A stretch of DNA of 64,000 nt from Pseudomonas putida (GTDB lineage Bacteria; Pseudomonadota; Gammaproteobacteria; Pseudomonadales; Pseudomonadaceae), in contig CP047152.1 of NCBI GenBank assembly GCA_041879295.1, forward strand, positions 1,059,501 to 1,123,500. Direction: 5' to 3'. Below, one piece after another: positions 60,885-63,169 of the stretch. Each line of letters starts with the position of its first letter. Positions within the stretch are counted from its first letter, which is position 1. Below the pieces are notes generated by a model, which did not search any database, was not told the DNA's origin, and saw nothing but the letters and a program-made list of their open reading frames with translations. The position numbers and the translations under genes are program-made.

Positions 60885-60913
60885 GCAGCAGCCGCTTAAG
60901 GACCGACGTTCCA

Positions 60914-61549
60914 ATGTTGACCATCGCGCTTTCCAAAGGCCGTATTCTCGACGATACCTTGCCGTTGCTGGCCGAGGCCGGCATCGTGCCGACCGAAAAC
61001 CCGGACAAGAGCCGCAAGCTGATCATCCCCACCACGCAGGACGACGTGCGTCTGCTGATCGTGCGTGCCACCGACGTGCCGACCTACGTCGAGCATGGTG
61101 CTGCCGACCTGGGTGTGGCCGGCAAGGACGTGTTGATGGAGTACGGCGGCCAGGGTCTGTATGAGCCCCTGGACCTGCAGATTGCCCAATGCAAGCTGAT
61201 GACCGCGGGCGTAGTCGGCGCAGCCGAGCCCAAGGGGCGCCTGCGCGTGGCCACCAAGTTCGTCAACGTAGCCAAGCGTTACTACGCGGAGCAAGGTCGC
61301 CAGGTCGACATCATCAAGCTGTATGGCTCGATGGAGCTGGCACCGCTGATCAACCTTGCCGACAAGATCATCGACGTGGTCGACACCGGTAACACCCTGC
61401 GTGCCAACGGCCTGGAACCCCAGGAACTGATCGCCACGATCAGCTCGCGCCTGGTGGTCAACAAAGCCTCCATGAAAATGCAGCACGCCCGCATCCAGAG
61501 CCTGATCGAGACGCTGCGCGGAGCGGTCGAATCGCGACACCGCGGCTAA
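60914..61549 (+). CDS. hisG: ATP phosphoribosyltransferase HisG (short form)
   Basis: A 211-residue catalytic subunit for the first step of histidine synthesis. It begins [18 protein letters not shown] and has the PRPP motif [14 protein letters not shown] (about residues 155-168). It lacks the C-terminal regulatory domain of the long form, so it must work with HisZ, encoded elsewhere. AAGGA precedes the ATG. It is followed by an unusual inverted repeat before hisD. Confidence 0.95.
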
Positions 61550-61644
61550 CGCTCTACCTGCTGCGCGCGGCCTTCGCTGTCGCGCCCGTCTATCCGCGTC
61601 ATAGCCATTTTTCTCGGGTGCCCGCGCGTATGGACTGGTAGCTT

Positions 61645-61801
61645 GGGATTGTGCGAAAAGTCGCCGAGCGGCGATCATGCAAGAACGAAAACAGGCGAGG
61701 AACGGCCGGGGTCGCGCCCGACTTTGCTGGTTGCAAATGAGCATTCCGAGCCTGTTTTTAACGTAGCATGATCGTCGCGCAGGCACTTTTCGCACAATCC
61801 C
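61645..61801. repeat. 157-bp inverted-repeat structure between hisG and hisD
   Basis: Arms 61645-61696 and 61750-61801 are reverse complements at 41 of 52 positions. The outer 17 bases (GGGATTGTGCGAAAAGT / ACTTTTCGCACAATCCC) are perfect, as are CGATCATGC and AAAACAGGC inside. The 53-base centre holds a small GC-rich hairpin. The inner part reads AAAACAGGC...GCCTGTTTTT, so it resembles a terminator on either strand. It fills most of the 294-base hisG-hisD gap, which holds no gene; the 95 bases before it show nothing. It could be a MITE-like insertion, an attenuator or a structured RNA. Confidence 0.85.
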
Positions 61802-61843
61802 CTAGGGCGCCTGAGCATTCGCTAATATTACGAGGCCCTCGCC

Positions 61844-63169
61844 ATGACCGTGTCCACTGCAATTGCCCGTCTCAACGCTGCTGATCCGGATTTCGCCCGA
61901 CATCTGGATCATCTGCTGAGCTGGGAAAGTGTGTCCGATGACGCGGTCAATCAGCGCGTGCTCGACATCATCAAGGCCGTGCGTGAACGCGGTGATGCGG
62001 CGCTGGTGGAATTCACCCAGCGCTTCGATGGTGTTGACGCCAAGTCGATTGACGACCTGATCCTCAATCGCGCGCGCCTGGAACTGGCGCTGACCCGTAT
62101 CACTCCGGTCCAGCGCGAAGCCCTGGAAAAGGCCGCCAACCGTGTGCGCATCTATCACGAGCGGCAGAAGCAGGATTCCTGGCAGTACACCGAGGCCGAC
62201 GGCACCGTGCTCGGCCAGAAGGTCACCCCGTTGGACCGCGCTGGCCTGTATGTGCCGGGCGGCAAGGCGTCGTATCCGTCGTCGGTGCTGATGAACGCCA
62301 TCCCGGCCAAGGTTGCCGGCGTGGCTGAAGTGGTGATGGTGGTACCGACCCCACGGGGTGAGGTCAACGAGCTGGTGCTGGCGGCTGCCTGCATCGCCGG
62401 TGTCGACCGGGTGTTCACCGTCGGTGGTGCCCAGGCCGTGGCTGCGCTGGCCTACGGCACTGAAAGCGTGCCGCAGGTGGACAAGATCGTCGGCCCGGGC
62501 AACATCTACGTTGCCACCGCCAAACGCCACGTGTTCGGCCAGGTAGGCATCGACATGATCGCCGGCCCCTCGGAAATTCTCGTGGTGTGCGACGGCCAGA
62601 CCGACCCGGACTGGATCGCCATGGACCTGTTCTCCCAGGCCGAGCACGACGAAGACGCCCAGGCCATTCTGGTCAGCCCGGATGCCGCCTTCCTCGATCG
62701 CGTGGCTGCCAGCATCGACAAGCTGATGCCAACCATGGAACGTGCCGATATCATCGAAAAGTCGATCAACGGCCGTGGTGCGCTGATTCAGGTGCGAGAT
62801 ATGCAGCAGGCCATGGAAGTGGCCAACCGCATCGCACCGGAACACCTGGAGCTGTCGGTGGCCGACCCGCAAGCCTGGCTGCCACACATTCGCCACGCTG
62901 GCGCGATCTTCATGGGCCGCCACACCAGCGAAGCGCTGGGCGATTACTGCGCTGGCCCTAACCACGTGCTGCCCACTTCAGGTACCGCGCGTTTTTCGTC
63001 GCCGCTGGGGGTGTATGACTTCCAGAAGCGTTCGTCGATCATCTTCTGCTCCGAGCAGGGCGCGTCCGAGCTGGGTCACACTGCCTCGGTCCTTGCCCGA
63101 GGCGAGTCGCTCACTGCCCACGCCCGTAGTGCCGAATACCGTATCCTGACCCAAGACAAGGGGAACTGA
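61844..63169 (+). CDS. hisD: Histidinol dehydrogenase
   Basis: A 441-residue zinc enzyme that oxidises histidinol to histidine in two NAD-dependent steps. [32 protein letters not shown] (about residues 217-248) is the family signature. [10 protein letters not shown] and GCHT-type [23 protein letters not shown] carry the metal and catalytic His residues. GAGG lies 9 bases before the ATG. It is followed by hisC at 2 bases' distance. Confidence 0.97.

Follow-up and report, generated by a model that had tools for sequence, protein, structure and literature searches.

A MITE is usually viewed as a copy of a single transposon that has suffered internal deletion or is drifting. REPs are intergenic palindromes in Pseudomonas. 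Among IS5 elements, those that duplicate TA on insertion make up the IS427 group and those that duplicate TNA the IS1031 group. IS5-linked MITEs are already known in Pseudomonas, and the parts of the account used here describe MITEPsy1 as 100 nt long, terminated by GGAAGGTCTGAAAAAGCC and flanked by 4-nt duplications (CTAG or YTAA; PMC3189936). From partial accounts as well, REPs measure 20–40 bp (PMC3733652), while R178 of P. fluorescens is 101 bp, has an internal 11-bp inverted repeat, and occurs in 18, 28, and 9 copies in three strains (PMC2718517). QMITE2 of Coxiella is, in the portion of its description considered, a MITE with stably folding transcripts and 7–9 bp duplications (PMC10969869).

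We analyzed a stretch of 64,000 nucleotides of Pseudomonas putida (the window), in which a sequence-only reading had pointed to a long inverted repeat between hisG and hisD. The repeat is flanked by ORFs at 60914–61549 and 61844–63169, which we take to be hisG and hisD on the strength of that reading and of our own reading of the proteins. It is indeed long: the arms (61645–61702 and 61744–61801) are 58 nt each, 78% complementary, with 41 nt between them, and the 52-nt arms with 41 of 52 positions paired reported previously correspond to these arms cut somewhat shorter. The outer 17 bp pair perfectly and are limited by GGG/CCC, and the inner arms read GAAAACAGGC and GCCTGTTTTT, all as described from the letters alone. 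As RNA, the repeat folds at −92.2 kcal/mol as compared to −51.2 ± 3.2 for 200 shuffles (z = −12.7), none of which folded as well. The minus strand gives z = −10.1, and folding with DNA parameters gives z = −9.6. Coding capacity is absent, as had been stated, since the sole crossing ORF is a mechanical one of 299 aa on the minus strand (60896–61795) that spans most of the repeat and runs antisense through hisG, which we did not take as a gene. Neither the repeat nor its core matched Rfam at the gathering score, with sub-threshold hits only (best E 1.6). Taking the evidence below as a whole, we consider it highly probable that the repeat is a 157-bp MITE moved by an IS5-family transposase, which would carry a functional folded core and sit passively at hisG–hisD. 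The features of the window copy are as follows.

61645..61801, + strand: MITE (non-autonomous IS5-type miniature element), 157 bp; orientation taken from the asymmetric core
61645..61661, + strand: left terminal inverted repeat, GGGATTGTGCGAAAAGT
61785..61801, − strand: right terminal inverted repeat, perfect complement of the left
61643..61644, no strand: remnant of the left TA target duplication, now TT; the empty site is GCTTAGGG
61803..61804, no strand: right TA of the target duplication, with one extra C before it
61681..61764, + strand: conserved core, common to elements with other ends; model R1 matches 61682–61764
61687..61696, + strand: 5' arm of core stem 1, GAAAACAGGC, partner 61750–61759
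61750..61759, + strand: 3' arm of core stem 1, GCCTGTTTTT
61723..61737, + strand: core apical hairpin TTTGC-tggtt-GCAAA, followed by TGAGCA

The sequence-only reading had left two possibilities, a MITE-type element or a conserved RNA structure governing hisD–hisC, and had proposed a search for copies in this and other Pseudomonas genomes. Many dispersed copies were found. In the window's own genome, a DNA search returned, besides self-matches of the arms, the window copy and seven dispersed relatives, and a covariance model of the core matched nine loci, eight of them elsewhere than hisG–hisD. Across the genus, 141 of 199 genomes had a DNA match to the element, often a partial one, and 146 of 199 matched the core model, in a scan scoring at most 23 candidates per genome, so that copy counts are lower bounds. 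The window element also matched 6 plasmid records and a query with the second type of ends (class ii, below) matched 19; phage records showed no match to one distant core, and the apical motif was present in four viral contigs.

We then compared the hisG–hisD gap itself in 118 loci (102 distinct sequences from 108 genomes, the window's included). Only the window's locus (L040) carries the MITE, while close relatives have an empty site, GGTAGCTTAGGGCGCC or similar, where the window reads GGTAGCTT-element-CTAGGGCGCC; the insertion site is TTAG. These empty sites refute, for this element, a conserved cis-regulatory RNA specific to hisG–hisD. Such an RNA would agree with the very stable fold, and the gap does contain a conserved covarying structure (see below), but the sequence is found in 1 of 118 loci and has relatives at eight other loci of the genome, leaving this explanation a negligible probability.

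The copies measured are 139–185 nt long, with lengths clustering at 142, 156, and 171 bp. Among 62 copies processed, 58 had both ends, and TA flanks both sides in 39 of these 58 (left side in 42, right side in 46); counting once the places that were read twice (in G127 and G108), the figure is 37 of 56. The family pattern is TA-element-TA. In the window copy, the right TA is kept with one extra C and the left has lost a base, and the remark that there is no clear target duplication fits such decay. Because this duplication is degraded, the window element may be immobile now, and the empty sites reveal past movement only. The element is thus short and non-coding, with terminal inverted repeats, multiple copies (nine core matches), and a target duplication that is clear for the family and present in degraded form in the window copy. 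Together with transposase-bearing elements that have like ends (described below), this bears out the MITE reading. Two side observations concern other copies. In L070, two copies in opposite orientation (490–645 and 2362–2517) flank an ORF, presumably for a chromate transporter, in an arrangement that resembles a composite unit. Near 3387637 (L108) and 3562468 (L109) of G000:C1, we noticed by eye short remnants in which one element end directly adjoins the inner GTTTTCAACG part; they look like internal deletions of the MITE.

The conserved structure of the host gap is a separate feature, which the MITE interrupts and which is probably pseudoknotted. Its parts in the window are as follows.

61592..61631, + strand: host hisG–hisD RNA-like structure (arms of helix A and helix B)
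61592–61598, + strand: helix A, 5' arm
61613–61623, + strand: helix B, 5' arm
61625–61631, + strand: helix A, 3' arm, with one mismatch in the window
61805..61815, + strand: helix B, 3' arm, separated from the 5' arm by the MITE

We defined this structure in relatives (L041–L063 and L133–L223), in a count that leaves out duplicates, one mis-cut row, and 20 loci that are overlong or have large inserts, the window's among them. In the resulting 64 distinct empty gaps, helix B has 11 bp, 98.0% paired, with two-sided changes in 5 pairs, while helix A has 7 bp, 87.7% paired, with two-sided changes in 2 pairs. The bases of helix A are mostly near-invariant, and one particular pair does not form in 32 of the 64 gaps. 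The two helices interleave in pseudoknot order and together show 7 two-sided pairs, as compared to 1.2 ± 0.9 in shuffled and at most 2 in slid controls, from which we model a likely pseudoknot. RNAalifold, which draws no pseudoknots, recovers helix B and not helix A, and Rfam returned no family for eight hisG–hisD loci. T runs follow helix B in some relatives. The MITE sits between the 3' arms of helix A and helix B, and in the minimum-energy fold of the window, helix B still forms around the MITE hairpin. In the main texts of the open literature, we found no printed account of the hisG–hisD structure. By eye, a conserved GTCATAGC in it is complementary, in many relatives, to GCTATGAC at the start of hisD. 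Also by eye, this loop is occupied in three loci (L164, L166, and L167, in G197, G095, and G119) by a different insert, ~250 bp long and bounded by inverted ends, and in L162 (G141) by a shorter palindromic one. By this inspection, the loop took inserts at least twice.

Which transposase might move the MITE? Using an end-pattern search, we located in G000 a 940-bp element (G000:C1:2397666–2398605; L126 1167–2106) with MITE-type ends, each next to a TA, and in G108 four copies of a related 941–945 bp element, e.g., GGCTCTGTACGAAA, with TA adjoining both ends in all four. The transposase pieces match Pfam DUF4096 (PF13340) and DDE_Tnp_1 (PF01609). Against the NCBIfam model transpos_IS5_3 (NF033580), the first pieces score 131.1 and 123.9 bits and the second 109.1, as compared to a cut-off of 110. 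Plasmid relatives are annotated as "IS5 family transposase," and among the 15 matches listed, 2 read "IS5-like element ISPs1," the sole IS name. The transposase family of the presumed partner is therefore that of IS5 (ISPs1-like). In the resident element, the transposase occupies two frames and an in-frame stop breaks the second; among the copies in G108, L114 alone has a long second frame (213 aa), the other three being split further. Judging from ends and transposase family, an ISPs1-like IS5-family element is likely the mover of the MITE. In the part of a published account used here, the ISPssy transposase is named beside a site whose end resembles that of the window element (PMC5507510).

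The ends turned out to be the variable part of the element. A core of ~70 nt occurs with different terminal repeats and different target duplications (TA or TNA). Within Pseudomonas, at least two end types besides that of the window copy accompany it, and still others do so elsewhere in the phylum. When named genomes were scanned for an exact piece of the core, at least 120 stretches matched, and all 120 loci retained, with 124 copies, were sorted by end class using cut-offs set in this analysis. Class i, with window-like ends, comprises 42 of the 124 copies, with TA duplicated in 30; class ii, with GAACCTGTTTACGAT-like ends, comprises 41, with a trinucleotide duplicated in 26, all TNA; and class iii, with CAGGCCGTTGAAAAACG-like ends, comprises 13. 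The remainder are 23 copies with other or decayed ends and 5 at contig edges. Beyond Pseudomonas, hosts of this exact piece include Stutzerimonas, Azotobacter vinelandii, Chitinimonas sp. BJB300, and a genome labelled Pantoea, and there are single records labelled Clostridia, Thermodesulfobacteriota, and Nitrospiria, which may be mis-binned. The core model matches 38 of 299 genomes of the phylum (5 of them in the window's genus) and 17 of 153 genera. Three genomes outside the class have at least 15 core matches each, many equal in score. In distant copies such as L360 and L368, the stem sequences are wholly different yet paired, and the ends are different too. Another observation comes from a genome of another class, where L384 (G291:C29:51257–51742) holds two adjacent core-bearing elements with GGGCGTGTTGACATT ends; G291 has 46 such ends at no more than one mismatch. 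We found no autonomous partner for the class ii, class iii, or G291 GGGCGTGTTGACATT ends in the loci examined, and no printed account of end exchange in the main texts of the open literature.

We quantified covariation in three alignments. In class i (41 of 52 distinct copies used), two-sided changes affect 27 of 45 pairs with 97.1% of cells paired, equalled in 0 of 500 shuffles. In a narrow core alignment (36 of 46 picked sequences), 6 of 19 pairs are two-sided, a number equalled in 13 of 500 shuffles, whereas the covariation score was equalled in none. There, the outer-stem pair 7–113 is A-U in 19 sequences, G-C in 15, and G-U in 2. The same pair in the exact-core scan, in which the 5' base was free in the search, is A-T in 47, G-C in 30, G-T in 1, and A-C in 1 of the 79 copies with a 3' arm (82 copies, 3 of them without this arm). 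In a diverse set (30 of 40 listed sequences), 25 of 27 pairs changed on both sides and 95.1% are paired; the score is 0.509 as compared to 0.175 ± 0.012 for shuffled alignments and at most 0.105 for slid ones, which had up to 15 two-sided pairs, the structure being drawn from the same sequences, which flatters the slid control. Unpaired positions are conserved as well in this set: of 30 copies, 29 keep TGAGCA and 25 keep GCGGAG, and the AAC that comes after the stem forms invariant columns. The window copy is a longer variant in which an extra stretch replaces GCGGAG. The suggestion that the mismatches in the middle of the repeat form a meaningful pattern is therefore partly right. For the family, they are mostly conserved unpaired GCGGAG and TGAGCA around the apical hairpin, but the window copy has the extra stretch instead of GCGGAG.

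What keeps the pairing? For tests of strand and of end sharing, we used 77 distinct class-i copies, counting events by nearest neighbour and not on a tree, so that they are not fully independent. The left and right ends of one copy shared 49 departures, as compared to 5.6 in shuffles (maximum 19), and the 17-bp ends pair perfectly in 7 of the 77 copies. The window's right end exactly mirrors its left, and its perfect outer 17 bp fit a right end rewritten from the left. Such end sharing is what palindrome-correcting replication (template switching) would leave, and correction alone, with the core a functionless relic carried along with the ends, is an explanation we regard as somewhat unlikely. 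It would also sit well with the rarity of G-U in the diverse set, where it makes up 22 of 769 standard pairs and is not significantly above A-C (22 as compared to 16, p = 0.42). It accounts less well for the unpaired positions, since correction alone does not conserve loops, and TGAGCA, GCGGAG, and AAC remain although the stems of distant copies are rewritten; the core moreover persists with other ends and across classes. In our reading, palindrome correction explains part of the pairing and selection on a folded strand explains the loops.

The strand that folds bears on whether the core might be a structured RNA transcribed from the plus strand. In class i, one-step departures from Watson–Crick pairing are more often G-U than A-C (38 as compared to 15, p = 0.002, for pairs predicted on both strands), as expected from folding of one strand; the excess lies in the inner pairs (21 as compared to 5), while that at the ends is not significant (17 as compared to 10). 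A strong RNA fold and, by our reading of the sequence, a tandem GA-like internal loop would also suit an RNA. In contrast, the diverse set shows no significant asymmetry, so G-U excess failed there as proof of RNA. Orientation gives little support either, since in tandem gaps 16 copies lie in the same and 29 in the opposite orientation (p = 0.07), and a lack of significant bias argues against a sense-strand regulatory RNA. With no promoter-like site in 61540–61860 and no Rfam match, we judge a plus-strand RNA unlikely.

Gene context was counted in 80 of the at least 120 stretches. Genes were called with a home-made program that recovered the expected ORFs when checked on a stretch of the window, and by its calls all 82 copies in these first 80 of 120 loci are intergenic. 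Of 74 copies between near genes, tandem gaps hold 45, convergent gaps 19, and divergent gaps 10, and the convergent-to-divergent ratio of 19:10 differs from 29:74 in the remaining gaps of the same loci (p = 4e-4). A preference for convergent gaps, like a hairpin with short T runs in its inner stem, could be read as the mark of a bidirectional transcription terminator, and termination from either side had been suggested by the sequence-only reading. This suggestion found no support. A simple consensus scan gave 0 terminator-like sites within 61540–61860, so an intrinsic terminator (GC-rich stem, short loop, T tract) was rejected, and many copies have only four T. Avoidance of promoters explains the convergent enrichment equally well, with no terminator role, and we rate a terminator as very improbable.

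We therefore return to the MITE with a folded core as the preferred reading. An IS5-family transposase acting in trans would have put the element into the hisG–hisD gap of this lineage, where it is most likely only a passive insert in a loop of the conserved intergenic structure. The core would be a functional folded module (as ssDNA, cruciform, or transcript) that repeatedly gained the ends of local IS5-type elements. Palindrome correction at replication would keep part of its pairing, and selection presumably its unpaired motifs. More tentatively, the element may be a MITE that switches chassis around an independent, Pseudomonadota-wide core, whose GCGGAG/TGAGCA loop a host or transposon factor may read as ssDNA or RNA. 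If the core is functional, this would give a reason for the same small hairpin in many lineages, and the conserved loop motifs would offer a handle on the factor that reads them. The locus also carries a caution, for a striking operon hairpin can be an insertion, here within another conserved structure. At hisG–hisD we are dealing with an ordinary insertion; what is unusual is the element family's covarying core with exchangeable ends.

How does this compare with the systems described before? Unlike REPs, as far as the partial account of these goes, the MITE is far longer and has IS-type ends and a TA duplication. QMITE2 can be likened to it by description, not by sequence, and the portion of its account considered describes no shared core with exchanged ends. 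R178, compared by description only, is compatible with the core in size and shape, resembles it in copy number, and could be this core; the parts of its account consulted do not give terminal repeats, covariation, or a wider distribution (PMC2718517). The ISPs1-like IS5 elements share with the MITE their terminal pattern and the TA beside both ends, but they measure ~940 bp, have a two-frame transposase, and their resident copy gave none of the nine core matches. MITEPsy1, from what its account offers in the parts used, is likewise short and non-coding, with IS5-type terminal repeats and a target with a central TA, whereas the present elements measure 139–185 nt, have other ends and a TA duplication, and contain a core common to other end types. 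While MITEs are commonly regarded as remains of one transposon, in this family it is the interior that is retained and covaries, and the ends and even the length of the target duplication that vary.
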